Assembly (NCBI RefSeq): GCF_024345375.1
Contig: NZ_JAGQAZ010000001.1
Coordinates: 186,001-250,000, forward strand
Direction: 5' to 3'
Source of the DNA: Cyanobium sp. WAJ14-Wanaka
GTDB lineage: Bacteria > Cyanobacteriota > Cyanobacteriia > PCC-6307 > Cyanobiaceae
DNA length: 64,000 nt
Shown here: in pieces, positions 1 through 16,349 of the stretch
How the letters are laid out: each line of letters begins with the position of its first letter
Numbering within the stretch: the first letter of the stretch is position 1
Position numbers and translations under genes: made by a program
The notes under the pieces: model-generated
Database searches by the model: none
The model's input: only the letters and a program-made list of their open reading frames with translations
What the model was told of the DNA's origin: nothing

Positions 1-41
1 GTTGCAAGCCAGTTCAGGGGCAGCTGCAGCTGGAAGAAGAC

Positions 42-63
42 AAAAAGCCCGGACGCGCCGGGC
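42..63 (-). terminator. Rho-independent terminator after guaB3
   Basis: Read on the minus strand, a 6 bp perfect stem (GCCCGG / CCGGGC, loop of 5) is followed by a run of five T residues. It lies about 55 bases past the stop codon of the IMP dehydrogenase gene and points the right way to end that transcript. Confidence 0.75.
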
Positions 64-116
64 CGGAGGGTGTGAGGAGTGTGTGGGCCGAAGCCCCCAC
101 AAACTAAAGATAGGCC

Positions 117-1304
117 TTACTTGCCCATCCCTAGCTGCTGGGCTTTTTGATACACCTTGCCCTCCGTGAGCAGGGATGGGGCCACCACCACCTCCACTTT
201 TTGCATCTCCTTAATGGTGCGGGCACCGAGGGTTCCCATCGAGGTTTTGATGCAACCCAGCAGGTTTTGGGTGCCATCGTCGAGTCCAGCTGGGCCCCGC
301 AGGATTGTTTTCAGGCTGCCGGTGGTGCCCACTTTGATGCGGGTGCCGCGGGGCAGCACGGGGCTAGGTGTGGCCATGCCCCAGTGGAATCCCCGGCCTG
401 GGGCCTCCTGGGCGCGGGCAATAGGTGAGCCAATCATCACAGCATCGGCCCCGCAGGCCAAGCATTTACAGATGTCGCCGCCGGTGACGATGCCGCCATC
501 GGCCACGATCGGCACGTAGCGACCACTTTCCTCGAAGTAATCCTGGCGAGCTGCGGCACAGTCGGCCACGGAGGTGGCCTGGGGGATGCCAACGCCCAAA
601 ACGCCGCGGGAGGTGCAGGCGGCACCCGGGCCAATGCCCACCATTACGCCTGCGGCGCCGGCTCGCATCAATTTGATGGCCACGTCGTAGGTGACGCAAT
701 TGCCGATGATCACCGGCACACCGAAGTCGCGGCAGAGGGCCTCGAGATCAAGGCTCTCCTGGCCGGCCGGACCGATGTGTTCGGTGCTGACCACCGTTGC
801 CTGCACAAAGAACAGGGAGGCGCCGGCCTCGGCAATGGCCTTGCCAAATTTGATCGCTGCCACGGGGGTGGCGCTGACGGCCGCAATTCCTCCCCCCTGT
901 TTGATTTCTGCAATTCTTTGGCGGATCAGATCTTCGCGAACAGGCTGGCTGTAGAGCTCCTGCATTAGGGGCACAAACTCCTCTTTACCCACGGCGACAA
1001 TCCTGTCCAGCACGGGGTTGGGGTCGTCGTAGCGACATTGCACACCCTCAATGTTCAATACGCCCAGGGCGCCCAGCTTGGTCAGCTCAACGCACATGCC
1101 CACATCCACCACCCCATCCATGGCGCTGGCGATGATCGGGATCTCCAGTTGCAGTCCCCCCAGGCTCCAACTGCTGTCAGTGACTGCTGGATCCACGGTG
1201 CGGCCGCCTGGCACCAGGGCAATTTCGTCAATGCCGTAGGCGCGACGAACAGTGCGGGAGCGACCGAGCTGAATGTCCACCTGAATATTCCGTATTCGGG
1301 CCAA
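117..1304 (-). CDS. guaB3: GuaB3-type IMP dehydrogenase family protein
   Basis: 395-residue TIM-barrel protein of the IMP dehydrogenase / GMP reductase family. The active-site loop GIGPGAACTS is visible, with the catalytic cysteine at residue 230, and the phosphate-binding stretch DGGIVTGGDICK follows. Full-length bacterial GuaB is about 480-490 residues because a CBS pair is inserted in the barrel; that insert is absent here, matching the cyanobacterial/actinobacterial GuaB3 subclass. The family oxidises IMP to XMP with NAD+ in guanine nucleotide synthesis. Genomes with guaB3 often also carry a canonical guaB, so which does the main flux cannot be told here. A terminator follows the gene. 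The subclass call rests on length and cyanobacterial context. Confidence 0.85.
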   Translation of the reverse strand: MARIRNIQVDIQLGRSRTVRRAYGIDEIALVPGGRTVDPAVTDSSWSLGGLQLEIPIIASAMDGVVDVGMCVELTKLGALGVLNIEGVQCRYDDPNPVLDRIVAVGKEEFVPLMQELYSQPVREDLIRQRIAEIKQGGGIAAVSATPVAAIKFGKAIAEAGASLFFVQATVVSTEHIGPAGQESLDLEALCRDFGVPVIIGNCVTYDVAIKLMRAGAAGVMVGIGPGAACTSRGVLGVGIPQATSVADCAAARQDYFEESGRYVPIVADGGIVTGGDICKCLACGADAVMIGSPIARAQEAPGRGFHWGMATPSPVLPRGTRIKVGTTGSLKTILRGPAGLDDGTQNLLGCIKTSMGTLGARTIKEMQKVEVVVAPSLLTEGKVYQKAQQLGMGK

Positions 1305-1349
1305 CCTATCAACTTGAGCAGAGAGCTGGGTCTTTCAGCGGCTGGGGGC

Positions 1350-2504
1350 TTAGTCATCGAGAGCCAGTAGGGAAGGGCGCTGGCCCAGGGGGATTGGGGG
1401 CAGCCGTAAGGGGAAGCGGCCATCGCGCAGTTGGCGGGCCAATTCCTCGCCATGGGCCTCCGCCAACCTCGGGCTATGGGCAGGCGCGCAGCTGAGCCGC
1501 TGCCCGTTTAGCTCCAGTTGGCCGCCCAGCAGATGGTCGTAGCTGGCCAGGCCCAGGTTTGGTTTGAGCCGCCTGGGCAGGGCTAGATCGAGCACTGGTG
1601 CCTGCAGACTGGCGTTGTCTGCTGCGGCCTGTTCGGCAACTTTCCTATTGATCAGGGGCACGGGCACTGCCGTGGCGATCAGTAGGGCGCTGCCATGGCC
1701 CTCAAAAAAACAGGCCCGCACCCATGGGCTCCGCAGGGGATGGAGATCCACCGCCACCGCCGCGCTGCAGCCGGGGCTCAGGGCATGGCCACTGGCTTGG
1801 CGCTTGGGTTTGGGCTGGTGGCCGCTGCCGCTGCCCACCACCCAACCGATGGCGCCGCCCACCAGCACGGGGGAGCCAGGGCCCAAGAGCGCCAGACCTG
1901 GCATGGTCAGGCCAATGCTGCCCGCCCCGGCACAGCTGTAGAGGGCATTGGCAAAGGGGCCCAGCAGGGGGCCATAGGGGCTGGCCGTGAGACCTTCGGC
2001 GCTGCTGACCGCCACCACTCCGTTTTCGGCGATGGCGCGGTGCAACAGCAGCCGACCGGTGGCAAGTTGTTCGAGCTGGATCTGGCTGTGCAGTTCGCGG
2101 CGGGGGTGGAGGGCAGTTGCCTCGCCACTGGCATCGATGCTCACCTGCTGGCCCCCGATTAGGGCTGCTAAGACCTGGGCTCCGCCGAGGCGTTTCGGTT
2201 CCCCCAGGCCACCGCCGATGGCCAAGACCAGTTCGCTGCTGCCGTGGCCCGTGGCCGCACTTACCCCGCCAACCAGGGCTTGGCGAAAGCGAATTGGGGG
2301 CTCGCTGGCCCCCAGGCCCAGGTGCAGGCTGGCCTGGTCGGTGAAGCAGGCATCGGCTGCCACCACCACGTCTGTGGCGGCGTAGGCGGGGGCCATGCCG
2401 TGCTGGGCCACCAGTTTGCGAAATTCTGCGGCGGAGCAAACCGAGAGCACACCGCGCTCCTGCTTTTGGCGCAGTTGCGCCTCAGTGCGTACGGGAAAGC
2501 TCAC
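1350..2504 (-). CDS. HcyBio (DUF39) domain protein, possible homocysteine biosynthesis
   Basis: 384-residue protein with a glycine-rich centre (LVGGAIGWVVGSGSGHQP) that resembles the conserved GGxGxVVGxGTQHNP region of the DUF39/HcyBio family. In methanogens, family members take part in sulfide-dependent homocysteine formation from aspartate semialdehyde, usually with a partner carrying CBS and ferredoxin domains. No such partner lies next to this gene, so the role in this organism is open. The ATG at 2504 sits in a 66 bp divergent region shared with gyrA, and the stop lies 45 bp before guaB3, so the two could be co-transcribed. Family call by motif resemblance. Confidence 0.6.
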   Translation of the reverse strand: MSFPVRTEAQLRQKQERGVLSVCSAAEFRKLVAQHGMAPAYAATDVVVAADACFTDQASLHLGLGASEPPIRFRQALVGGVSAATGHGSSELVLAIGGGLGEPKRLGGAQVLAALIGGQQVSIDASGEATALHPRRELHSQIQLEQLATGRLLLHRAIAENGVVAVSSAEGLTASPYGPLLGPFANALYSCAGAGSIGLTMPGLALLGPGSPVLVGGAIGWVVGSGSGHQPKPKRQASGHALSPGCSAAVAVDLHPLRSPWVRACFFEGHGSALLIATAVPVPLINRKVAEQAAADNASLQAPVLDLALPRRLKPNLGLASYDHLLGGQLELNGQRLSCAPAHSPRLAEAHGEELARQLRDGRFPLRLPPIPLGQRPSLLALDD

Positions 2505-2570
2505 GGCTGGGCTGATTTCGGCAGGCTAAGGGGTTTTCGATAAACTATCCATTGCATAAGGCGGTGATAC

Positions 2571-5195
2571 ATGGCGGATCCAACCGGTCCCGGCGAACGG
2601 AATCCCGGTGACTCCGACGAACGGATCATCCAGACCGACCTGCGCAATGAAATGTCGCGCTCCTATTTGGAGTATGCGATGAGTGTGATCGTGGGAAGGG
2701 CCCTGCCCGATGCCCGCGATGGCCTCAAGCCGGTGCACCGCCGGATCCTCTACGCGATGTATGAGCTGGGTCTTACCAGCGATCGCCCCTACCGCAAATG
2801 TGCCCGTGTGGTGGGGGAGGTGCTTGGTAAGTATCACCCCCACGGCGATACGGCTGTCTACGACGCCCTGGTGCGGATGGCCCAGGACTTCTCCATGCGC
2901 ATGCCCCTAATCGATGGGCATGGCAATTTCGGTTCGGTGGATAACGATCCCCCCGCGGCGATGCGGTACACCGAATCGCGGTTGCAGGCCCTCACCACCG
3001 ATGCCCTCCTGGAGGACATCGAAGCCGAAACCGTCGACTACGCCGACAACTTTGACGGCTCCCAGCAGGAGCCCACCGTGATGCCGGCCCGCATCCCCCA
3101 GCTCTTGCTGAATGGCTCCTCTGGCATTGCGGTGGGGATGGCCACCAACATTCCGCCCCACAACCTCACCGAGTTGATCGACGGGATGTTGGCGCTGATC
3201 GCCAATCCTGAGATTGATGATCAGCAATTGATGGCAATTATTCCGGGCCCTGATTTTCCCACCGGTGGGCAAATTCTGGGTCGTCGGGGTATTCGCGAGA
3301 CCTACACCACCGGCCGCGGCTCGGTGACAATGCGGGGTGTCGCCTCGATCGAAACGGTGGAGGCGAAGGGACGGCCAGATCGGGATGCGGTGATCATCAC
3401 CGAATTGCCCTACCAAACCAATAAAGCCTCCCTAATAGAGCGTATTGCTGAACTGGTCAACGATAAAAAGCTGGAGGGTATTGCCGACATTCGCGATGAG
3501 AGTGATCGCGATGGCATGCGCATCGTGATTGAACTGCGCCGCGATGCCTATCCCCAAGTTGTTCTAAACAATCTCTTCAAGCTCACCCCCCTCCAAAATA
3601 ACTTCAGCGCCTACATGCTGGCCCTGGTTAAGGGTGAGCCCGTGCTGCTCACCCTGGCCAAAATGTTGAGGGTCTTCCTCGACTTCCGGGTCGAGACCAT
3701 CGAGCGGCGCACCCGCTATCTGTTGCGTAAGGCGGAAGAGCGCGACCACATCCTCTTGGGCCTGTTGCTGGCACTCGATCAGCTCGATCCGATCATCGCC
3801 CTGATCAGGGCTGCCCCAGATGCTGCCACGGCCCGCCTGCAGCTACAGGAGCGCCATGGCCTGAGCGATGTCCAGGCGGATGCAATTTTGCAGATGCAGC
3901 TGCGGCGTCTGACGGCTCTGGAGGCCGACAAGATTCGCCTGGAACACGAGGATCTGGTTGCCAAGATTGCCGACTACAAGGACATTCTTGGCCGTAGGGA
4001 ACGGGTGCTGGGAATCATCATCGATGAGCTCCAGGCGATTAGGGCCAAGTATCTGTCGCCCCGCCGCACCGAAATCCTCGACCTCGAGGGTGGCTTGGAG
4101 GATATCGACCTGATCGCCAACGAGCGCTCGGTGGTACTGCTTACCGAAACCGGTTACCTCAAGCGGATGCCGGTGAATGAGTTTGAGGCGACTAGCCGGG
4201 GCACCCGGGGCAAGGCCGGCACCAAGAGCCAGGGGGAGGAGGCTGTCAGGTTGTTTATCAGCTGCAACGACCACGATTCACTGCTCCTCTTTAGTGATCG
4301 GGGTGTTGTCTATTCAGTGCCTGCCTATCGGGTGCCGATGTGTAGCAGGGCTGCCAAGGGCACTCCCATCGTGCAGCTGCTACCGATTCCCCGGGAAGAG
4401 CAGATCACCTCGCTGCTGGCCGTAAGTGCCTTCGAAGAGGACGGGGTGTTGTTGATGCTCACCAGCGGCGGCTATGTGAAGCGCACCCGCCTCTCTGCCT
4501 TCGCCAACATTCGTGCCAATGGCCTGATTGCCATTTCCCTGGAGGAGGGTGATGCCCTCACCTGGGTGCGGTTGGCCCTGCCCGGTGACAGCGTGCTGAT
4601 CGGTTCCCTGAAGGGGATGACGATCCATTTCCGCCTCAACGACAGCGAGCTAAGGCCCCTGGGGCGCACAGCCCGCGGGGTGCGGGCCATGAATCTGCGC
4701 AACGGTGACCAGCTGGTCAGCATGGATGTGTTGCCGGCCGAGCTGGCTGATCGGGTCGCCAATGCCTCCGGCGACGACGAAGCTTCGGCGCTCGATGGGC
4801 CCGACGACGAGGTCGAAGAAGCGGTTAGCGCCGATGGTCCCTGGGTGCTGGTGGCTTCAGCCAGTGGCCTGGGCAAGCGGGTGCCCGTTGATCAATTCCG
4901 GCTGCAAAAGCGGGCCGGTATGGGCCTGCGCTGCATGAAGTTCCGCCGCGACGGGGATGTGCTGGTGGGCCTCAAGGTCCTGGGTGCTGGTGAGGAACTG
5001 CTGCTGGTAAGTGAAAAGGGGGTGATCGTGCGCACCCAGGCCGATGCGATTCCCCAGCAGTCCCGGGCCGCCACGGGCGTCAGGCTGCAGAAGCTGGATG
5101 CGGGCGACCGGCTCTCGGAGGTGGTCCTGGTGCCGCCGGCGCAGGAGGAGGAGCCCGTTGTCGAGGTTGAAGCCACGGTCGCGCCGGAGGCGTGA
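2571..5195 (+). CDS. gyrA: DNA gyrase subunit A
   Basis: 874-residue type IIA topoisomerase A subunit that breaks and rejoins DNA with GyrB to introduce negative supercoils. The catalytic tyrosine is residue 133 in the motif [21 protein letters not shown] and the quinolone-determining region precede it. The C-terminal half holds the six-bladed beta-pinwheel; a GyrA-box-like sequence ([10 protein letters not shown]) lies near residue 540. An acidic stretch around residues 735-755 sits between late blades and is probably a lineage-specific loop. The start ATG follows a short divergent intergenic region. The stop overlaps the GTG of crtL (GTGA), so the two genes are likely coupled. Confidence 0.97.
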
Positions 5196-6448
5196 AGGTG
5201 GATGTGTTGGTGATTGGTTCAGGGCCTGCGGCCCTGGCCATCGCCAGTGAATTGGTTGATCGTGGCCTAGTGGTGGAGGGCCTTTCCCCAGTTGATCCAG
5301 CTGAACCCTGGCCCAATACCTACGGGATCTGGGGCCCAGAGGTTGATCGCCTTGGCCTGGGGGGGCTGCTGGGCCACCGCTGGAGCGATACGCGCAGCTA
5401 TTTCGCCAGTTCGGTTGAGCCCCTGCTGCACCAGGTGGACTACGGCCTCTTTGACAAGCAGCGATTGCAGGCCTTTTGGTTGGGGCGCTGCAGCCATGGG
5501 GCCATGGCCTGGCATCGGGGCCTGGCAGCGACGATCGACCATTCCCCCAGCCATTCCACGGTGACTACCGACAGGGGAGTGGAGCTCAAGGCCCGTTTGG
5601 TGGTGGATGCCAGCGGCCATCGGGCCGCCTTTGTGCAACGTCCAGATGGGGGAGCAGTGGCAGCCCAGGGGGCCTACGGAGTGGTGGGCAGCTTCTCTGC
5701 TCCACCGGTTAGGGCCGGGGAGTTTGTGTTGATGGACTACCGCAGCGACCACCTCAGCGCCGCTGAACAACGCTGCGGCCCTCCGACCTTTTTGTATGCG
5801 ATGGATATGGGGGAAGGGCTGTTTTTTGTGGAGGAAACCTCCCTCGCCTTGGCTCCACCAGTGCCGTTTGAGGTGTTGAAGGAACGGTTGCAGCGGCGCT
5901 TGGCCCACGGCGGGATCGCCATCGAAACTGTTTGCCACGAGGAATTTTGCCTATTCCCGATGAATCTGCCGCTGCCCGATTTGAACCAGAGGGTTGTGGG
6001 CTTTGGGGGGGCGGCAAGCATGGTGCACCCTGCCTCTGGCTACATGGTTGGGGCTTTGTTGCGCCGAGCACCGGGCCTGGCCGATGCGATTGCCACGGCC
6101 CTGCGTAATCCGGCGGGTGGCGATTCCCTGCTGGATGGGGCCGAGGTGGCGGCTAGCGCTTGGCAAGCCCTCTGGCCACTGGAGTTGCGGCGTAAGCACG
6201 CCCTCTACTGCTTTGGTTTGGAGAAGTTGATGCGTTACCCGGAGGCCCAGCTGCGCCAGTTTTTCGACAGTTTTTTCCAGTTGCCGCAGGAGCAGTGGTA
6301 TGGCTTTTTAACCAACACCCTCAGCCTGCCTGAACTGGTGGCCGCCATGCTGCGTTTGTTCCTAGCGGCTCCCTGGAGCGTGCGTTGGGGCCTGATGCAA
6401 CAACAGGGCAGGGAGTGGGCCCTGCTTACCCGCTTGCTCAGCCCCTGA
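5192..6448 (+). CDS. crtL: Lycopene beta-cyclase
   Basis: 418-residue flavoprotein that forms beta rings on lycopene, leading to beta-carotene and zeaxanthin. The N-terminus has the Rossmann motif [12 protein letters not shown]. Family signatures follow in order: [30 protein letters not shown] and [17 protein letters not shown], all matching the CrtL type of cyanobacteria and plants, not CrtY or heterodimeric cyclases. Translation begins at a GTG that overlaps the gyrA stop by 4 bp. CrtL-b and CrtL-e types are close and cannot be separated by eye; beta is more likely for a zeaxanthin-making picocyanobacterium. crtE, for the same pathway, lies 10 kb downstream. Confidence 0.9.
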
Positions 6449-6467
6449 CATACCCAGGATTGCCCCC

Positions 6468-7625
6468 ATGACCGATCTCTGGATTGCCAACACCATCAGC
6501 GATTTGATCGAGGGTGATGTGCGCGAGCACCTGCCTTTAGAGCGGATTCCCCTGCAGGGCGATGTGCTCGGGATGGGTACCACCACCAGTTACGACAACG
6601 GTGAATTGGCCTTTCTCTATGACTCTGATCAGAACCAATCCCAGGTTTTTAAGGCCAAACCGGAGGGGGGCGGCGTGGAACGCCTGCTGCCTGGAGAGGG
6701 ACTGCACCACTTCCCCTACGCCTGTTTCAGTGCCGATGCAACTGACCTGCGCCATCCCCTCAGCTCGGCTGACTTGGCAGAACTGCAGGTCCAGCCAGGG
6801 GAGCCCCTAATGGCAGTGGTCGGCAGGGCCATTTCCCTGTTGATCGCCGAACAAAGACTCGAGCCGGCGCCCGTCTATGGGCTGCGGTTGGTGTCGCGCT
6901 GGAGCAGCTTGGTTTATACGGTGGCATCCAAGCTCTGCATGGGCGAGCGACGGCGCAATCGGGCATTCACCATCGCCAATTCCCAGCCAACCGCTGAAGA
7001 TGGGCGCAGTATTTATGCCGCCCTTAAGCATTTTCGAGTGGGGGATGCAAATTGGGATCAGGCTGCCGGGATCAGCAATTTGGGGGCAAGCCCGGGCTGG
7101 GATTGCTGTGGCTTTTGGGATTCCGAGCCAGAATCAGGCCGGCTGACCGTGCCAGTTGCTGGTGAACATCTCCACCTCCATGGCTGTAGCCAGGACCTGC
7201 GCCATGGCGGCCATCTGCACCATGAACACGTGGGGAGCATTTTGCTCGGTCTAGATAGCTTGGTGATTTATCCATTTCACTCGATTAGCTATCTAGCCAG
7301 TGATTTGGCCATCGAATCCCTGGGTTGGACCCCGGCCAATTCAGGCGGTAGAGCTCCTGGCCTGCTGGAGTTCGAATTACATAATCGTGGCCAATTGGAT
7401 GTCAGTGATGTGGGCGTGGCGGTGGTTGTCGACGACCACTACAACTCCCATCGCTACCTAAGAATTCCTTGGCTTGCGGCCGGCGAGGCTGAAAACTTTA
7501 AATTGCCCCTGGATTTAGGGGCTGGCAGTCATGGCGTTGAGGTGATCGCCGATCCCCATGGCGACATCTTGGAGCCCACTGGGCAACAGGCAAATAATCG
7601 CGGTTGTTTGCGGATAGATATTTAA
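6468..7625 (+). CDS. Acetolactate decarboxylase-like protein with C-terminal CARDB-like domain
   Basis: 385-residue protein. Residues about 5-270 resemble alpha-acetolactate decarboxylase: an N-terminal GDVLGMGTTTSYDNGEL (family: GDFGLGTFNxLDGEL) and the zinc site HLHxxxxDxxxGGH with candidate ligands His236, His238 and His249 at exactly the family spacing. The last 90 residues look like a CARDB-type beta sandwich (phrases LLEFELHNRGQLDVSD and PWLAAGEAENFKLPL, ending in QQANNRG), which the standard enzyme of about 240-280 residues lacks. The known enzyme turns acetolactate into acetoin; whether this one does is inference. It begins 19 bp after crtL, so it may be on the gyrA-crtL transcript. 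No acetolactate synthase gene is adjacent and no signal peptide is seen. Confidence 0.65.
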   Translation: MTDLWIANTISDLIEGDVREHLPLERIPLQGDVLGMGTTTSYDNGELAFLYDSDQNQSQVFKAKPEGGGVERLLPGEGLHHFPYACFSADATDLRHPLSSADLAELQVQPGEPLMAVVGRAISLLIAEQRLEPAPVYGLRLVSRWSSLVYTVASKLCMGERRRNRAFTIANSQPTAEDGRSIYAALKHFRVGDANWDQAAGISNLGASPGWDCCGFWDSEPESGRLTVPVAGEHLHLHGCSQDLRHGGHLHHEHVGSILLGLDSLVIYPFHSISYLASDLAIESLGWTPANSGGRAPGLLEFELHNRGQLDVSDVGVAVVVDDHYNSHRYLRIPWLAAGEAENFKLPLDLGAGSHGVEVIADPHGDILEPTGQQANNRGCLRIDI

Positions 7626-7633
7626 GTTTTCTG

Positions 7634-7684
7634 CCAATTATTAGGCATAGCCAGTTATTAGGCATAGCCAATTATGAAGGCAGG
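7634..7684. repeat. 17 bp tandem repeat between convergent genes
   Basis: Two consecutive 17 bp units (CCAATTATTAGGCATAG, then the same with one change) at 7634-7650 and 7651-7667, followed by a decayed third unit at 7668-7684 that runs over the stop codon of the GH57 gene. AT-rich against a GC-rich background. Function not evident. Confidence 0.85.
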
Positions 7685-9318
7685 CTGAGCCAGTCGGCCG
7701 CGTTAAGTGTGGGGAATAGTCCGTCCTCATCGCAGACGGCCTCAAGCCATTCCTCGCCAAGTTCAGTGTCGGTTTCGATCGCATCTAGAAGTCGCCAAAA
7801 GCGATCCAGGTGGCGGTTGATCCGTTCCCTCGCCAGCTCGGTGGTGGTGCCGGCCCGCAGGATGAAGCTCCAGTCGGAACTTTGGGCCAATAGCAATTCG
7901 CGGCCGGCCTGGTTGAGCAGTTGCAGTTGCTGGGCACTGCCCACGCCCGTGTTCACGCGCCGCACCATTGCCGTTGAGGCCCGTTGCCATTCGGCCACCA
8001 CCCAGGCATTGGTTTCGTTGAGCCAGTAGTTGTGGTAACCCCCCTGGCCCCAGCTACTGGGCGAGGGGCGACAGACCTGCAGCCCGCCGCCGGATCCCAG
8101 GGCCTCCCGCAGGGTGACCAGCTCAATCCCTTCGCCTGCCCCTTGGCGGAATAGGGCCGCCAGGAATTGGGGCCCTTCAAACCACCAGTGGCCGAAGAGT
8201 TCGGCATCAAAGGGCGCGACCAGCAGGGGGCTGCGCTCCATCGAACTGCCCAGCTCGGTCAATTCCCGGCGGCGGCCGGCAAGGTAATCGGCGGCATGGA
8301 CCTCGGCCTTGGCGGCGGCGGCGGCGGGTTCGTAGGGCTGCTTGTGCTCGAGGGGGCAGTCCTGGCCGCTGACCCGGTGCAGCTTGAGGCCCAGGGGCCT
8401 GCGGCAGGCGATTCCCAGTTCCTCTAGTTGGGCTTCCGGTAGATCCCAGCCCAAATCACGGTGGAATTCCCTGTAGACCCCATCGCCTGGGTAGCCCTCG
8501 CGGGCACTCCAGACCGGCAGGGTGGAGCGGCTGTCACGGCCAAAGAAGGCAACGCCGCCAGGGGAGCAGATCGGGGCATAGACCCCGTAGCGGGGCCGGG
8601 GTAAGGCATGAAGCAGGCCGTGGCCATCAAGAATCGAGTAGCGGAGCCCGCAATGCAGCAACTCCTGATCCAGCCCTTCGAAATAGGCACATTCGGGCAG
8701 CCAAATCCCCAGGGGCCTTTCCCCGAGCAGGCGCTCGTGTTCCCTGGTCGCGGTGCGCAGTTGGGCCCGCACTGCCTCCGGCACCTGACGCAGCAGGGGC
8801 AGGTAGCCATGGGTGGCGGCGCAGGTGATCAGATCCAGCACCCCCAGCTGCTGCAGGCGGCGGAAGCGGGGAATTAGCCGGCCTTGATAGGAGTTCCATT
8901 GCTCGATGGTGGCCTCGAGCTGCTGGGCCAGGTGGCTCGCCGCCGCTTCCAGCTCGGCTGGGGCCTGCTTGAGCAGGCCTAGGCGCAGTTCAAGCCAATC
9001 CTGGAAACGGCCATTGAGGCCCCCGTCGCTCAAAAGAGACAGCAGGGTTGGAGAGAGCCCGAGGGTCAGCCGGGCGCGCTGGTTGGGGTCGGCCGCCGCC
9101 GCTTCAAGCACGGCCAAGAGCGGCAGATAGCACTCCTGGAGGGCTTGGAAATACCAGTCCTCCTCAAGGGATCCGGGTTCGCTGCTGCGCACGTAGGGCA
9201 GGTGCGCATGCAAAACAATCGCCAGCTGGCCCGCATTTTGGGCGCTGGCGGGGATAGCTTCCGTGGCCAGATCGCCTGCGGCCATGGAGATCTCGTGGTG
9301 GGGCAAGTCTACGACCAA
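7672..9318 (-). CDS. Glycoside hydrolase family 57 protein, probable 1,4-alpha-glucan branching enzyme
   Basis: 548 residues. The GH57 fold is supported by an N-terminal VLHAHLPYVR motif, the nucleophile motif GIWLPECAY (Glu209) and the acid/base-type motif VAPFDAELFGHWW (Asp371), followed by a helical C-terminal region. The GIWLPE and FDAELFGHWW pair is typical of GH57 branching enzymes and related DUF1957 proteins. These act in the cytoplasm on glycogen or amylose. The first ATG at 9318 gives a short unconserved leader; a second Met at 9285 is a reasonable alternative. The gene ends head-on with the ALDC-like gene and starts divergently from leuA. A malQ gene elsewhere in the window fits the same glycogen theme. 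Confidence 0.82.
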   Translation of the reverse strand: MVVDLPHHEISMAAGDLATEAIPASAQNAGQLAIVLHAHLPYVRSSEPGSLEEDWYFQALQECYLPLLAVLEAAAADPNQRARLTLGLSPTLLSLLSDGGLNGRFQDWLELRLGLLKQAPAELEAAASHLAQQLEATIEQWNSYQGRLIPRFRRLQQLGVLDLITCAATHGYLPLLRQVPEAVRAQLRTATREHERLLGERPLGIWLPECAYFEGLDQELLHCGLRYSILDGHGLLHALPRPRYGVYAPICSPGGVAFFGRDSRSTLPVWSAREGYPGDGVYREFHRDLGWDLPEAQLEELGIACRRPLGLKLHRVSGQDCPLEHKQPYEPAAAAAKAEVHAADYLAGRRRELTELGSSMERSPLLVAPFDAELFGHWWFEGPQFLAALFRQGAGEGIELVTLREALGSGGGLQVCRPSPSSWGQGGYHNYWLNETNAWVVAEWQRASTAMVRRVNTGVGSAQQLQLLNQAGRELLLAQSSDWSFILRAGTTTELARERINRHLDRFWRLLDAIETDTELGEEWLEAVCDEDGLFPTLNAADWLSLPS

Positions 9319-9338
9319 CTCCTAGGCTGGCATTTATA

Positions 9339-9353
9339 AGGGGCCTGGCCCCT
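9339..9353. promoter_or_regulatory. Palindrome in the GH57-leuA divergent region
   Basis: Perfect inverted repeat AGGGGCC-T-GGCCCCT centred 51 bases before the leuA ATG, with CCTAGG copies at 9321 and 9351. The loop is too short for a strong RNA hairpin, so a protein-binding site is the more likely reading, but no known operator matches. Confidence 0.35.
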
Positions 9354-9396
9354 AGGATGGGTCTAACTCATAGTCATTCCGCATAGAGGCGCCGAC

Positions 9397-11040
9397 ATGG
9401 CCCGCGACCCCGGCCGGGTACTGATCTTTGACACCACGCTTCGCGATGGTGAGCAATCGCCTGGGGCGAGCCTCAATCTCGAAGAAAAGCTGGCGATCGC
9501 CCAGCAGTTGGCCCGGCTCGGTGTCGACATCATTGAGGCTGGTTTCCCCTTTGCCAGCTCTGGCGATTTCAATGCCGTTCAGCGGATTGCGGCCACCGTC
9601 GGCAGCCCCGATGGGCCGGTGATCTGTGGCCTGGCCCGGGCGGCCCAGGGCGATATCAAGGCCTGTGCCGATGCGGTGGCTCCCGCGGCCCGCCGGCGCA
9701 TCCACACCTTCATTGCCACCAGTGACATTCACCTGGAGCACAAGCTGCGCAAAAGCCGCCAGGAGGTGCTCGAGATCACGGCCGAAATGGTGGCCTATGC
9801 CCGTTCCTTGGTTGAAGACGTCGAGTTTTCCTGCGAGGACGCCGGCCGCAGTGATCCGGAGTTCATGCACCAGGTGATCGAAGCTGCGATCAAGGCCGGG
9901 GCCACAACTATCAATATCCCCGACACGGTGGGCTATGCCACGCCGGCTGAATTTGGGGACCTGATTGCTGGGATTAATGCCCAGGTGCCCAACATTGATC
10001 AAGCCGTGATTTCGGTCCATGGCCACAACGACCTGGGCCTGGCCGTGGCCAACTTCCTTGAGGCCGTCAAAAACGGAGCTCGCCAGCTCGAGTGCACGAT
10101 CAACGGCATTGGCGAGCGGGCCGGCAATGCCTCCCTTGAGGAGTTGGTGATGGCGCTGCACGTGCGCCGCCAGTATTTCAACCCCTTCCTGGGGCGCCCC
10201 CCCGAGAGCAGCACGCCCCTCACCGGGGTGCGCACCGAAGAAATTACCAAGACATCCCGCTTGGTGTCCAACCTCACCGGGATGGCGGTGCAGCCCAACA
10301 AGGCAATTGTTGGTGCAAATGCCTTCGCCCACGAATCGGGTATCCACCAGGACGGCGTTCTTAAAAATCGCCTCACCTACGAAATCATTGATGCCCGCAC
10401 CGTTGGCCTTGCCGACAACCGCATCTCCCTCGGCAAGCTTTCGGGCCGCAGTGCCTTCCGGGCCCGCCTTGAGGAGTTGGGTTACACCCTCGAGCGCGAC
10501 GACCTCGATGATGCCTTTGCCCGTTTTAAGGAACTGGCCGACCGCAAACGGGAGATCTCCGACCGCGATTTGGAGGCAATCGTCAGTGAACAGGTCCAGC
10601 AGCAGGACCAGGCGAACTTCATCCTGAGGAGTGTCCAGGTCAGCTGCGGCACCAACCTGCTGCCCACCGCCACCGTCAGCCTGACCACCGCCGATGGTGC
10701 CGAGATCAGCGAGGCGGCGATTGGTACGGGCCCAGTCGATGCGGTTTGTCAGGCCCTAAACCACCTGGCCCAGGTGCCCAATGAGTTGGTGGAATTTTCG
10801 GTGAAGTCAGTCACTGAGGGCATTGATGCCATGGGCGAGGTGACGATTCGCCTGCGCCACCAAGGGGTGCTCTACTCCGGCCACGCCGCCGATACGGACA
10901 TCGTGGTGGCGGCGGCCCAGGCCTTTGTCAACGCCCTCAACCGGCTCTTCTCCGCAGGCGCCAGCCAACCACTCCACCCCCAGAAGGCTCCCCTGCCAGA
11001 GGCGGGAGATCTGGTTGGCCTGGAGCGGCCAAGCCTGTGA
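9397..11040 (+). CDS. leuA: 2-isopropylmalate synthase
   Basis: 547-residue enzyme of the DRE-TIM metallolyase superfamily. It condenses 2-oxoisovalerate with acetyl-CoA in the first committed step of leucine synthesis. [16 protein letters not shown] at the N-terminus carries the metal- and substrate-binding residues, and [13 protein letters not shown] supplies the metal-binding His pair. The C-terminal third is the LeuA allosteric domain ([20 protein letters not shown]), consistent with leucine feedback control. Length is normal for LeuA type 1. The stop overlaps the GTG of the following permease gene by 4 bp, an unusual pairing since that gene has no obvious link with leucine. Confidence 0.96.
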
Positions 11041-11852
11041 GGGGCAAGGCGCTGCAGTTGGTGGCTTTGCTGGTGCTGGCCCTAGCGATGCTGGTCCCCC
11101 TGCTCTGGCTGGTGAGCACCTCCCTAAAGGGGCCCATGGAGGACATCTTCACCAGCCCTCCAGCCCTATTGCCGAGCCATCCCAGTTTTGAGGCCTATGG
11201 GCGCCTGTTTGCCAACAATCCCATGGGTACCTACCTGCTCAACAGCACGGTCGTAAGTGGTTTGGCAGTGATCTGCAACCTGCTGTTTTGCTCCCTGGCG
11301 GCCTATCCCCTGGCCCGGATGCGCTTTGCCGGCCGCGGCCTGGTGCTTGCCCTAGTGGTGGCCACCATTTTGATCCCCTTCCAGGTGGTGATGATTCCGC
11401 TCTACCTGCTGATGGTTCAGATCGGCCTGCGCAACACGCTTTGGGCCTTGATCATTCCCCAGGCCGCCACCGCCTTTGGTATTTTTCTATTGCGGCAAAG
11501 TTTCCTGGCAGTGCCCGTGGAATTGGAGGAGGCGGCCAAAAGCGATGGCTGCTCCCCCCTTGGGGAGTGGTGGAACGTGATGCTTCCTGCGGCCAGGGCG
11601 GATCTGATCACCCTGGCCATGTTCGTATTTATCGGCACCTGGAGTGATTTCCTCTGGCCCCTGGTGATTCTCGACGACCCAAAGCTCTACACCTTGCCCC
11701 TGGGGCTCCAGCAGTTGGCCAGCAGCTTTGCCCTGGATTGGCGTTTGGTGGCGGCAGGCTCGGTGGTTTCGATCCTGCCGGTGCTGGTGGTGTTTGTGGC
11801 CCTGCAGCGCTACATCCTGCCCAGTGCCAGTGGTGATGCGGTCAAGGGCTAG
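11037..11852 (+). CDS. Carbohydrate ABC transporter permease (MalG-like, orphan)
   Basis: 271-residue inner-membrane protein with about six hydrophobic segments and the MalG-type coupling loop [21 protein letters not shown] (EAA motif), followed by [15 protein letters not shown]. This is one of the two permease subunits of a CUT1 sugar importer, such as those for maltose or glucosylglycerol. Its partner permease, binding protein and ATPase are not nearby; cyanobacterial sugar ABC genes are often scattered. Translation starts at a GTG overlapping the leuA stop, so it is probably on the leuA transcript. Substrate cannot be read from sequence. Confidence 0.88.
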
Positions 11853-12232
11853 GGCTTGATTGGCGGCAGTTCCGGCAAATTGCCATCCAAATTGGGATTT
11901 CCAGCCGCCTTGAGCTGGCGCACTTGCTCCTTAAGGGCCTGGTTTTGGCCCAGGAGGTTTCGAACCTGGGCGCTGTTGCGCTCCACCACCTGCAGCCGCT
12001 CCACGGCTGAGCGCAGCTGCTCCTCAAGGCCGCTGTTCTGTGCCAGGGCCCTGCTGTTCTCGAGCCCCTGCACCCTTTCTTGCAGGGTGCGGATCTGGCT
12101 GCCCTGTTCGCGCATCTTGCCTACGAGCACCAAAAACAAAACGGCCAACATGGCGCTGAAGCCGGCTTGCACCCAGGGAGCCCAGTCGGGCATCTCCAAG
12201 CTGGCATTGGGGCGTTTTGGGGCGGGCGCCAT
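11849..12232 (-). CDS. Small membrane-anchored coiled-coil protein, unknown function
   Basis: 127 residues from the ATG at 12232. An ATG at 12310 would add 26 low-complexity residues and is less likely. One transmembrane helix (VQAGFSAMLAVLFLVLVGK, about residues 22-40) is followed by about 60 residues of predicted coiled coil rich in Gln, Leu and Glu (LQERVQGLENSRALAQ and so on), then a Pro-rich tail. The layout resembles small anchoring or septum-associated proteins, but I do not recognise a family. It converges on the ABC permease gene with a 4 bp overlap (CTAG). Confidence 0.6.
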   Translation of the reverse strand: MAPAPKRPNASLEMPDWAPWVQAGFSAMLAVLFLVLVGKMREQGSQIRTLQERVQGLENSRALAQNSGLEEQLRSAVERLQVVERNSAQVRNLLGQNQALKEQVRQLKAAGNPNLDGNLPELPPIKP

Positions 12233-12336
12233 GGCAGGGGGTAAGGGCAATAGTCCCTCCGATCCTGGCGGCGTCTCTAGGGTTTTGCCACGGGCCGTTG
12301 CGCAGTGCAAGCTGGATTCCTAAAGCTCATGCCTCC

Positions 12337-12627
12337 ATGGCCGTTGCCTTGGTCAGTCCGGAAGTGCGACTCTTGGGGTATTTCGCCGCAAGTCTCACCA
12401 CCATCAGCTTTTTCCCCCAGGCCATCAAGACCCTGCGCAGTGGGGACACCTCGGGTATTTCGCTGCGGATGTATGGGCTCTTTACCGCCGGCATCGCTCT
12501 CTGGGGGATCTACGGCCTATGCACCCAGGATGGCCCTTTGATTCTGGCCAACCTGGTCACGATTGTGCCCGCCGGTGTGGTTTTAGAGCGGCGATTCCAA
12601 GCCTGGAGGGCCCAGCGCCGTGGCTGA
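12337..12627 (+). CDS. SemiSWEET family sugar transporter
   Basis: 96 residues from the ATG at 12337; an open frame extends further upstream, but those residues do not look like the family. Three transmembrane segments and the PQ-loop motif (SFFPQAIKTLRSGDTSGIS) identify a bacterial SemiSWEET, which works as a homodimer carrying small sugars down their gradient. Length matches the family (about 85-100). It overlaps the GTG start of the first crcB by 8 bp, so SemiSWEET, crcB1 and crcB2 form one tightly coupled plus-strand unit. Substrate is unknown. Confidence 0.82.
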   Translation: MAVALVSPEVRLLGYFAASLTTISFFPQAIKTLRSGDTSGISLRMYGLFTAGIALWGIYGLCTQDGPLILANLVTIVPAGVVLERRFQAWRAQRRG

Positions 12628-12991
12628 TGACGCCCTGCTGGTGGCCATCGGCGCGGTGCCGGGTGCCTGGTTGAGATTTCGGGTGGTCAACCACCTGGAG
12701 CCGATGGTGCCCCGCAAGCACTGGGGCACCCTGGGGGTGAATGTGGCGGCCTGTTTCGTATTGGGTTTGCTGGTGGGGCTTGAGGAAAGTTGTGGTCCGG
12801 GCAGCCAACGCATCCTGTTGGTTCTTTCCACTGGCTTTTTGGGCAGTTTCAGCACCTTTTCCACCTTCATGGCGGAGCTGTTTGTGGCGCTCAAGCAACG
12901 CCAATGGCTGGAGGCTTTCTTGCTATTGCTGGTCTCGATCCTGGTGGGGGTGGTGGCCACGGCCCTGGGCTTTGCGGTGGGGGGAGATTGA
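12620..12991 (+). CDS. crcB: Fluoride channel subunit CrcB (first of pair)
   Basis: 123 residues, four transmembrane segments. Fluc/CrcB marks are GAVPGAWLRF near the N-terminus, the pore asparagine in NVAACFVLGLLVG and GFLGSFSTFSTFMAE with the paired phenylalanines of the fluoride track. Proteins of this family export fluoride ions. Tandem crcB genes usually encode the two opposite-topology halves of a heterodimer; a single-gene form is a dual-topology homodimer. GTG start at 12620 overlaps the SemiSWEET stop; its own TGA shares one base with the next ATG. Confidence 0.9.
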   Translation: MADDALLVAIGAVPGAWLRFRVVNHLEPMVPRKHWGTLGVNVAACFVLGLLVGLEESCGPGSQRILLVLSTGFLGSFSTFSTFMAELFVALKQRQWLEAFLLLLVSILVGVVATALGFAVGGD

Positions 12992-13365
12992 TGAGTCGCC
13001 AGCTCCTTGCCGCCGAGCTCAAGGAATTGACCCTGGTGTCTTGCGGGGCTATCCCAGGGGCGCTGTTGCGTTGGCAATTGGTATTGATATTGGGAAGCTC
13101 CGCTGGCACCTTGGCGGCAAACCTTTTTGGCTGTGCGGTGATCGGCGCCTTGATCGCTTTGCCTACCACTCGGCAAAGGCTATTTCTGGCGGCGGGCGTG
13201 GGTTTTTGCGGTTCGCTCACCACCTTCAGCTCCTGGATCCTTGGGGTGACCAAGGCCATGGCCCATCGGCACTGGGCCACGGCGGCGGGGGAACTTTCCT
13301 TGAACCTGGCCTTGGGTTTGCTGGTTCTGGCGCTGGCCTACGGCTTGGTGCGCATTAGGCGCTGA
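12991..13365 (+). CDS. crcB: Fluoride channel subunit CrcB (second of pair)
   Basis: 124 residues from the ATG at 12991. The open frame runs further upstream but the ATG fused to the crcB1 stop is the natural start. It carries the same marks as its partner: GAIPGALLRWQ, pore Asn in NLFGCAVIGALIAL and GFCGSLTTFSSWI. The C-terminal tail ends LVRIRR. The two subunits differ clearly in sequence, so they probably form an asymmetric heterodimer. The stop lies 11 bp inside the 3' end of the convergent pgpH gene. No fluoride riboswitch was recognised upstream of the unit. Confidence 0.88.
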   Translation: MSRQLLAAELKELTLVSCGAIPGALLRWQLVLILGSSAGTLAANLFGCAVIGALIALPTTRQRLFLAAGVGFCGSLTTFSSWILGVTKAMAHRHWATAAGELSLNLALGLLVLALAYGLVRIRR

Positions 13366-15409
13366 AGGCCTTGCGGGCTGGGATGGGATAGGGGATGCGG
13401 CGGTGCCTCATCCGTTTCCAGACCTGCACAAAGGCCCGAATCAGCAGCTCCAATTCGGCGCGTCCCATGCCGCTGGAGGCGAGTTGGCCATCATCCAGTC
13501 TGGCCCCAATGAGCCTGCGCACCATCGCCCTGGCCTCGGCCTCGCTGGTGCCTGGCGGCAGGGAGCGCAGGGCGGCTTCGCAGCCATCGGCAAGCATCAA
13601 GATTGCCGTCTCGCAGCTGTTGGGGGTGGGACCCCGATAGCGAAAACGGCTCTCCGGCACCGCGGGATTTTTTTCACGGGCCTGGTGCAGGAAATAGCCC
13701 ATCTTCAAGGTGCCCTGGTGCTCGGGGATGAAGTCAGCCAGGGGCTTGGGCAGTCGATAGCGTTTGGCGAGTTTCAGGCCCTCATCCACGTGGGCCTGGA
13801 GGATGGCGGCGCTGGCGAAGGGATCGTCGAGGCTGTCGTGGGGATTTGCTTCCTGGCCTTGGTTTTCGATGAACCATTGGGGGCCATGCAATTTGCCCAC
13901 GTCGTGATACATGGCTCCAGTGCGCACCAGGTCAACATCGGCCCCTATCGCCCGGGCCCCCTCCTCCGCCAGGCCGGCAATCATCAGGGTGTGCTCAAAG
14001 GTGCCTGGGGCCTCGCAGGAAAGGCGCCGTAGAAGGGGCCGTTGTAAATCGGCCAGCTCCAGCAGCCTGGCCCGGGTGAGCAGGCCAAAAAATGTCTCCA
14101 CCAGTGGCGCGATCAATAGACCTCCCATCAGCAGTGCCCCCAACAGCAGGGCTTCGCTGGGCAGGTCGACCTGGGCCACGGGGCTGCGGGTGAGTAATAG
14201 CCACTGCACCAGCAGGGCACCACTGGGCAGTAGCACCGCCAGCTGCAGCAGCTCGGCCCGGTTGCGCTGGCGGCCTGCTGCAAGTGCAGCCAGTGCAGCG
14301 AATCCTGAGGCCACCAGCAACCTGGTGCCCACCACCCCAGCCAGGGGCACGGGCCAAAGCAGGCTGGCGGCCGCCAGCCAGGCCAGCCCGCAGCTGGTGC
14401 CCAGTCCCTGGGCCAGCAGCAGGGTGGGCGGCACCAAGAGCACCAGGGGGCTAGCCAGGGGCCCGAGCCAGAGGCTGAAGCCCACCACCACCAACAGACC
14501 CACCAGGCCCAGCAGGGCCTGCCGCGGCTCGAGGGAGGGGCGCCAGCGCCTCATCGCCAGCAGCATTACCCCACAAACGGCCAGCGATTCGCCGAAATGG
14601 GCAAGCCAGATCAGGGGCCGGGGGCGCCGGTTCACCAGGCCGAAGTAATCGAGCACGTCAAAGGCCTGGGCTGTGATCGGCTGGCCTTGGCGGGTGATTA
14701 GGTCACCCGCTTTCACCGCAATGGTGGGGATGCCCTGTTGGGTGATCAACGCCTCGATCCGCCGCTGGCTCAGGGTTGGGTCGTTGCGGAGGTTTGCATG
14801 GCCCGCCAGGGAACTCACCAGCAGCCGGGCCCCCAGGGAGCGGCCCGGGGGCGATTGGCTCTCGAGCTGCAGATTGGCGGCCTCGAGTAGCTGGCCTTCG
14901 GCCACGCTGGCTGAAAGCCCCTGGCTCAACATCCGCAATTGGGCCTGCAACACATCCCTTTGCCATTGCCCCAGCTGGGCGCCATTGAGCTTCTCCAGCC
15001 ACTGTTGTTCCTGGGGGCTCAGGGCAATTGCCTGGACCTCGGCCCCCTGGCTATTGGCCTGGCGCTCCACTAACTGCAACTTGGCCTGGAGTTGGCGCAT
15101 TAGGGCACTGCTGGCCTCCTGATCCACCACTTGGACAGTGGTGCGATGCAGCATTTGGTCCCGGCGCTCCTCCAGGGCCGTGCTGTCGATAACCCGGGCA
15201 TCCTTGGGGGCCCTTGCCGTAAATGGGGCTGCCATGCCTGCCTGCAGGCTGGGCTCCACCAGCCAGGGCCAGCTGGCCAGCAGGGCCACCAGGGCGCAAG
15301 CCAGCACCACCGCCGCAATTTCTCGGCTACGCCAGAGGCCAGGGGTTTGCCTGGGTCGCTCTAGCCGGAGCAGTTGGCGCCACAGGGTTTGGAGTGGCCG
15401 CACGCGCAT
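13355..15409 (-). CDS. pgpH: PgpH-type HD-domain c-di-AMP phosphodiesterase
   Basis: 684 residues. One N-terminal membrane helix (VVLACALVALLASWPWL), an extracytoplasmic 7TMR-HDED region of about 230 residues, a seven-helix membrane domain and a cytosolic HD domain with the metal motif MYHDVGK near residue 500 (preceded by GTFEHTLMIAGLAEEGA). This is the architecture of PgpH, which cleaves the second messenger c-di-AMP. The cyclase that makes the signal, cdaA, is also in this window at 54.1 kb. The gene is divergent from folD and convergent with crcB2. Confidence 0.9.
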   Translation of the reverse strand: MRVRPLQTLWRQLLRLERPRQTPGLWRSREIAAVVLACALVALLASWPWLVEPSLQAGMAAPFTARAPKDARVIDSTALEERRDQMLHRTTVQVVDQEASSALMRQLQAKLQLVERQANSQGAEVQAIALSPQEQQWLEKLNGAQLGQWQRDVLQAQLRMLSQGLSASVAEGQLLEAANLQLESQSPPGRSLGARLLVSSLAGHANLRNDPTLSQRRIEALITQQGIPTIAVKAGDLITRQGQPITAQAFDVLDYFGLVNRRPRPLIWLAHFGESLAVCGVMLLAMRRWRPSLEPRQALLGLVGLLVVVGFSLWLGPLASPLVLLVPPTLLLAQGLGTSCGLAWLAAASLLWPVPLAGVVGTRLLVASGFAALAALAAGRQRNRAELLQLAVLLPSGALLVQWLLLTRSPVAQVDLPSEALLLGALLMGGLLIAPLVETFFGLLTRARLLELADLQRPLLRRLSCEAPGTFEHTLMIAGLAEEGARAIGADVDLVRTGAMYHDVGKLHGPQWFIENQGQEANPHDSLDDPFASAAILQAHVDEGLKLAKRYRLPKPLADFIPEHQGTLKMGYFLHQAREKNPAVPESRFRYRGPTPNSCETAILMLADGCEAALRSLPPGTSEAEARAMVRRLIGARLDDGQLASSGMGRAELELLIRAFVQVWKRMRHRRIPYPIPARKAFSA

Positions 15410-15470
15410 GGCTAAACGCTAGCTGGCCCGGGGCGGCAAGCTGGCAGAGAGATAGATACGCCCCATCGCC

Positions 15471-16349
15471 ATGGCCATCCGATTTGACGGCCGCCAGCTG
15501 GCTGCCGAAATTGAAGGCCGCCTCCAGCTCGCCATCGCCAAACGCCTCGGCCAGGCAGGCAGACCGCCAGGTCTGGCGGTTTTGCGGGTGGGGGACGATC
15601 CGGCCAGCGGGGTCTATGTGGCGAATAAGGAGAAGGCTTGCCTGCGCATTGGTATCACCAACCATGGCGCCCATCTGCCCGCCTCCACACCGGCGGCCGA
15701 GCTGTTGGCCACGGTTGAGAGGCTCAACCTGGACCCCTTGGTCGACGGGATTTTGTTGCAGTTGCCCCTGCCCGCGGGCCTCGACCAGGGCCCCCTGTTG
15801 GCCGCCATCGATCCAGCCAAGGATGCAGATGGTCTCCACACCTTGAATTTGGGCCACCTGCTCAAGGGGGAACCGGGTCCGCGCAGCTGCACCCCCGCAG
15901 GCGTAATGGCCCTTTTGGCCCGCTACGGAATTGGGCTGGCTGGCAAGCGGGCCGTGGTGGTGGGGCGCAGCATTTTGGTGGGCCAACCCATGGCCCTAAT
16001 GCTGCAAGCCGCTGGGGCCACAGTCAGCGTGGCCCATTCCCGCACCACCGATTTGGCGGGTCTTACCCGTCAGGCGGATGTGCTGGTGGTGGCGGCCGGC
16101 CGGCCCCAGATGGTGGGAGCCGAGCATGTCAAGCCAGGGGCTGCGGTGGTGGATGTGGGCATTCACCGCACCGCAGCGGGCCTCTGCGGGGATGTGCGTT
16201 TTACGGAGGTGGAGCCGATCGCCAGCGGCATCACCCCGGTGCCCGGAGGTGTGGGCCCGATGACCGTGACGATGTTGCTCGTGAATACCTTTGCCAGCTG
16301 GTGTGCCCACAACGGCCTGGATAACCCTTTGGCAGACCTATTGCCTTGA
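15471..16349 (+). CDS. folD: Bifunctional methylenetetrahydrofolate dehydrogenase / methenyltetrahydrofolate cyclohydrolase
   Basis: 292-residue FolD, which interconverts methylene-, methenyl- and formyl-tetrahydrofolate with NADP+. Motifs in order: [14 protein letters not shown] with the catalytic lysine, [22 protein letters not shown], the Rossmann-fold [14 protein letters not shown] and the C-terminal [13 protein letters not shown]. Length is typical (about 285-300). The start ATG at 15471 follows a short divergent gap shared with pgpH. crtE begins 43 bp after the stop, an order also familiar from other picocyanobacteria. Confidence 0.96.

Follow-up and report, generated by a model that had tools for sequence, protein, structure and literature searches.

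A conserved, uncharacterised protein family of picocyanobacteria with an acetolactate decarboxylase fold and a CARDB domain

The enzyme described so far that most resembles the protein studied here is acetolactate decarboxylase (ALDC; PF03306/TIGR01252; structures 4bt2, 6inc and 5xne). We take Arg145, Glu65 and the C-terminal Glu253 to be its catalytic residues, and its pocket is presumably completed by Arg145 together with a C-terminal tail that carries a conserved glutamate. CARDB domains (PF07705; PF1109, structures 3idu and 2kl6) are sandwich domains that usually sit at cell surfaces. For the Black Sea Synechococcus strains BS55D and BS56D, one report describes a predicted fermentation of pyruvate to acetoin via acetolactate synthase and alpha-acetolactate decarboxylase (PMC6776005), and another likewise gives the decarboxylase as predicted for acetoin fermentation in Black Sea Synechococcus (PMC8955281). 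A second substrate was assigned within the ALDC fold only in 2025, when human C11orf54 (PTD012; DUF1907, PDB 1xcr), which has a related fold with a zinc site, was reported as a beta-keto-acid decarboxylase for 3-dehydro-L-gulonate, according to a commentary (PMC12435205). Our literature search found no paper combining a CARDB domain with Synechococcus and, among papers containing both 'cardb' and 'acetolactate decarboxylase', no title that dealt with a protein uniting the two, titles being all that was covered.

The window, which is the whole 64,000-nt stretch of DNA analysed, encodes at 6468–7625 (+) an intact protein of 385 residues, here called ALDC-CARDB, as judged from the list of open reading frames (ORFs), Pfam and a predicted structure. 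Its ORF begins at the first start codon after a stop, and comprises an ALDC-fold part (approximately residues 1–275; 6468–7292, +) followed by a CARDB domain (approximately residues 275–385; 7290–7622, +). Nineteen bases separate it from the stop codon of crtL, the upstream gene for lycopene beta cyclase (5192–6448, +; NF045687, 647 bits), which in turn overlaps by four bases the end of an ORF at 2571–5195 (+) that we take, by reading, to be gyrA. Going through the ORFs of window positions 1–16000 by eye, we recognised no acetoin gene. A place behind gyrA and crtL and away from acetoin genes, as given in the initial annotation, was therefore borne out, and its 'photosynthetic operon' is an overstatement, the neighbours being gyrA and a lycopene cyclase. 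A leuA-like gene (named by reading) lies close downstream at 9397–11040, with relatives near 7 of the 46 named loci; we did not take it as evidence on the ALDC-CARDB protein.

Pfam placed CARDB at residues 278–377 (E 3.7e-5) with 24.3 bits, above the cut-off of 22.7. The ALDC model matched residues 6–50 (E 4.5e-4) with 20.1 bits, below its cut-off of 25, and the NCBIfam ALDC equivalog TIGR01252 reached 17.2 bits against a cut-off of 180.65; the curated cut-offs would therefore not name the protein an ALDC. Of the two Pfam families that the initial annotation had named, CARDB was accordingly found above threshold and ALDC only below it, and the C-terminal addition that it had put at about 90 residues is real and closer to 110 residues long. 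To define the family, we collected members from three sources: the window's own genome and its relatives (60 genomes, of which 9 matched), a set of 386 genomes from the phylum (13 matched), and genomes of named species, which contributed 46 loci. Leaving out broken and partial copies, 62 near-complete rows were reduced to 55 distinct near-complete proteins, the window's included, and the CARDB and ALDC Pfam models each match 54 of these at E ≤ 1. Viral contigs searched with patterns from the single protein gave no relative.

For comparison, we aligned 18 of 20 cyanobacterial ALDC loci recruited by PF03306. Left out were L088, which is frameshifted, and L079, which has AGH instead of GGH and was missed by the motif filter, its zinc histidines and arginine being kept by reading. 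Profile–profile alignment (hhalign) of the ALDC part of the family with these 18 proteins gave E 4.4e-7, a score of 53.0 and a probability of 92.6, compared with a mean score of 15.4 and a maximum of 27.1 for 200 column shuffles and a score of 22.9 for the reversed profile. This result was obtained after L075 and L094 had been trimmed, another MAFFT mode had been used for the ALDCs and query gap columns had been dropped; an earlier run with one untrimmed ALDC row gave E 0.0034 and a probability of 9.6. A PDB search with the single ALDC-CARDB sequence found no ALDC, and the family profile alone found ALDC 4bt2 at E 1.2 only.

A structure model built from 73 rows (55 family members and 18 ALDCs) had a mean pLDDT of 90.6 and a pTM of 0.88; a first model from 7 family rows alone was poor (pLDDT 64.4). 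When the 73-row model was compared with the PDB using Foldseek, ranks 1–11 were all ALDCs (E 4e-9 to 2e-7), followed by three low-TM transglutaminase rows and, at rank 15, the CARDB domain of PF1109 with a target-normalised TM of 0.80. VIA-align gave Z 20.1 to ALDC 6inc (216 aligned, rmsd 3.3), a match that does not count as evidence separate from the homology, because the predictor's alignment contained ALDC rows. No CARDB proteins had been added to that alignment, and residues 273–385 matched the CARDB structure 3idu with Z 14.1 (rmsd 1.9); the CARDB structure 2kl6 gave Z 13.5. Both folds proposed in the initial annotation, the ALDC fold and the C-terminal CARDB sandwich, were thus recovered, and their presence in one protein is confirmed. 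Human PTD012 (1xcr) aligned with Z 14.6 (224 aligned, rmsd 4.3). ALDC-CARDB differs from it in that the 55 members match 5 families at E ≤ 1 without PF08925 being one of them, and PMC12435205 mentions no CARDB domain. DUF1907 had no match in 194 cyanobacterial genomes, but the control genomes had none either, so that this absence carries no weight.

The ALDC part is collinear with ordinary ALDCs and keeps their zinc residues. His236, His238 and His249 of the zinc motif HLHGCSQDLRHGGH (7173–7214, +), already named in the initial annotation, and Glu46, the last residue of GMGTTTSYDNGE (residues 35–46; 6570–6605, +) and in the alignments the counterpart of ALDC Glu65, do not vary among the 73 rows (55/55 family members and 18/18 ordinary ALDCs), and the His238–His249 spacing equals that of ordinary ALDCs. 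In contrast, residue 151 (6918–6920, +) is threonine in 55/55 family rows and arginine in 18/18 aligned ALDCs. In the printed alignment, the 4bt2 counterparts of His236, His238, His249, Glu46 and Thr151 are His194, His196, His207, Glu65 and Arg145. The distance from residue 151 to Gly215, the next shared anchor, averages 63 residues in the family compared with 31 in ALDC, and the model places two predicted helices in this enlarged stretch (approximately residues 156–208; 6933–7091, +), which exceeds its ALDC counterpart by about 31 residues. Five further residues, N44, C157, R163, H252 and H254, are invariant in the family and were not found in the aligned ALDCs.

The C-terminal ends differ as well. 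After the LP position, ALDC rows continue for 12–39 residues and family rows for 108–124, which form the CARDB domain. Of the 18 ALDCs, 16 have an AE or VE within their last 16 residues (in L081 it is further upstream, and L094 ends early), whereas in the family alignment this tail with its conserved glutamate is absent and CARDB stands in its place. Since Arg145 is replaced throughout and the tail is gone, the ordinary ALDC mechanism cannot be assumed, and the missing arginine points to a changed chemistry. We did not file ALDC-CARDB as an ALDC, because Arg145, the tail with its glutamate and scores above the curated cut-offs, all defining features of an ALDC, are missing; rather, it is a conserved, uncharacterised family. 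Unlike CARDB domains described elsewhere, this one is joined to an enzyme fold and has no visible signal for export: reading of the N-terminus revealed no signal peptide, in agreement with the initial annotation, the ALDC part starting within the first few residues.

We surveyed 400 genomes from the family to which the window belongs, the one holding Cyanobium and Synechococcus (presumably Cyanobiaceae), and the CARDB type matched 69 of them, broken and partial copies included. The type is also carried by a further Black Sea strain, BSA11S (L017). Ordinary ALDC matched 50 genomes, 47 above the cut-off, with several copies broken and two of the 50 (G445 and G464) being weak cross-hits to the CARDB-type gene itself. 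The ALDC-CARDB type seldom shares a genome with ordinary ALDC, both being intact in G368, G468 and G594. We compared this with expectation in five genera, using genomes with a completeness of 90% or more (n = 24, 14, 19, 33 and 11, the window's genus included): an intact pair was present in two (G368 and G594), whereas 7.9 would be expected (one-sided p 0.001). This p value is a guide only, since it is not corrected for phylogeny although genomes within a genus are related, and since we designed the test with the data already in view. G468 falls outside this set, being 88% complete and from another genus. The calculation counts G566 and G580, which both have internal stops, as broken; counted as intact, they give 8.5 expected and p 0.0005. 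Intact CARDB-type genes occur with a broken ordinary ALDC in G409 and G313, the reverse holds for G568, and in G006 the CARDB type is split over two frames. G409, a single-contig genome, has two separate remnants of ordinary ALDC (L098 and L099). We rejected the idea that G409 had recently acquired the gene by itself through transfer, as the 78–81% identity to L003/L004 covers the whole stretch, flanks included.

The genes beside the two types also differ. A gene for catabolic-type acetolactate synthase (AlsS) directly adjoins ordinary ALDC in L077, L078, L079 and L101, the L079 copy scoring 515 bits against AlsS NF006378 (cut-off 510). No AlsS gene was found beside the CARDB type at the 69 loci L001–L069, many of which have flanks of only about 1.5 kb. 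Both two-type genomes of the co-occurrence test carry the alsS-linked ordinary ALDC (L079 in G368, L101 in G594). It is plausible from this gene arrangement that AlsS and ordinary ALDC make up an acetoin pair in picocyanobacteria. That the CARDB type is kept beside a complete AlsS–ALDC pair in G368 and G594 suggests that it has a separate role, although, of three ALDCs compared, it is also the alsS-linked kind to which the remnants in G409 and G313 come closest.

Our leading reading, which we hold tentatively and with somewhat less than even confidence, is that ALDC-CARDB is a cytosolic zinc-dependent beta-keto-acid decarboxylase on the ALDC fold, with acetolactate or a close analogue as its most likely substrate. 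The three histidines and probably Glu46 would hold a zinc ion, which would bind the keto or hydroxy acid and stabilise the enolate left by the loss of CO2. The places held in ALDC by Arg145 and the tail would be taken by Thr151, the additional helices and CARDB. The bound metal, the decarboxylation, the substrate and any part played by CARDB close to the active site are what we infer here. Acetolactate from the branched-chain pathway would be the likeliest substrate: the window's genome (G000, 2.14 Mb) encodes one complete large subunit of acetolactate synthase, next to a single weak and partial match elsewhere, which indicates that acetolactate is made there, and the low co-occurrence with ordinary ALDC points in the same direction. 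In genomes carrying the CARDB type, ALDC-CARDB would thus fill the ordinary ALDC niche. If true, this would extend the range of ALDC-fold decarboxylases, and picocyanobacteria would have an unrecognised way of processing acetolactate or another keto acid; the missing arginine offers a clear test of how the ALDC fold works.

A decarboxylase of the same fold could instead act on a different beta-keto acid, as C11orf54 does with 3-dehydro-L-gulonate, with Thr151, the extra helices and CARDB shaping a new pocket; we regard this as a substantial possibility, if one slightly short of the leading reading. The missing Arg145, the remodelled pocket and the lack of AlsS neighbours all point to another acid, and the family-specific invariant residues and the coexistence with alsS-linked ordinary ALDC in G368 and G594 fit it as well. 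There is, moreover, a precedent for substrate change in this fold (PMC12435205). The low co-occurrence with ordinary ALDC would, however, then have to be explained differently, for instance by lineage effects. The finding of AlsS beside ordinary ALDC in the two-type genomes led us to lower our confidence in the acetolactate reading a little and to raise that in a different acid by a similar amount. More broadly, the suggestion in the initial annotation that the substrate may differ from that of ALDC gains weight from Thr151, the enlarged stretch, the replaced tail and the absence of AlsS neighbours. Next to ALDC and C11orf54, the ALDC-fold decarboxylases may even have a third branch in ALDC-CARDB, with a substrate of its own, an arginine-free pocket and a cytosolic CARDB domain in place of the tail, spread over picocyanobacteria and Halieaceae, an idea that we consider quite conceivable but would not rely on.

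Two readings without decarboxylation carry less weight. A zinc protein of another kind, such as a hydrolase or a binding protein whose catalysis has been lost, would agree with the loss of Arg145 and the tail, and the first description of C11orf54 itself, based on p-nitrophenyl acetate, was that of an ester hydrolase (cited in PMC12435205); we nevertheless think it improbable, since the zinc ligands and Glu46 are present in 55/55 members from both cyanobacteria and Gammaproteobacteria, which suggests that catalysis has been kept. Far less probable still is a role in scaffolding or adhesion in which CARDB works in the cytosol and the ALDC part is structural. The CARDB domain is real, but no signal peptide was seen by reading, the active-site residues are invariant and no assembly genes were recognised beside the gene. 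Of the interpretation in the initial annotation, the ALDC fold and CARDB therefore stand, on profile, structure and conservation, and the cytosolic assembly role found no positive evidence.

The genomic position of the family varies. Both gyrA and crtL lie in the flanks of 26 of the 55 loci, gyrA only in one and neither in 28, many of these with short flanks; in WH7803 and some others, the genes before it were read as purQ and a peptidase-like gene. The gyrA–crtL place looks inherited rather than functional, and inspection by eye recognised no acetoin genes beside CARDB-type loci. The type also occurs, among unrelated neighbours, in six loci from Gammaproteobacteria MAGs, three of them named Haliea or Halioglobus. 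In the tree, these sequences form one group (100/100) beside Synechococcus such as WH7803, at a fork of 92/94 that is not starred. The gene was thus likely transferred between phyla, in a direction that this fork leaves insecure. The most distant family members, L007 and L066, come from two other cyanobacteria.

Ordinary ALDCs showed some features of their own. In L082 (2199–3158) and L083 (2235–3164), an era-like GTPase gene (named by reading) lies directly downstream of ordinary ALDC. The ALDCs of L083 (1270–2205), L073, L082 and other cyanobacterial loci have 42–77 extra N-terminal residues, with uncertain start codons. This part resembles a ribbon-helix-helix: RHH_1 matched one of the three scanned with 16.8 bits (E 0.0064), below the cut-off of 20.5, and the others were judged by eye. 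A DNA-binding fusion is possible on these grounds. Finally, the ALDCs of L070, L071, L072 and L094, from some other cyanobacteria, begin with a hydrophobic stretch that, judged by eye, could be an export signal.
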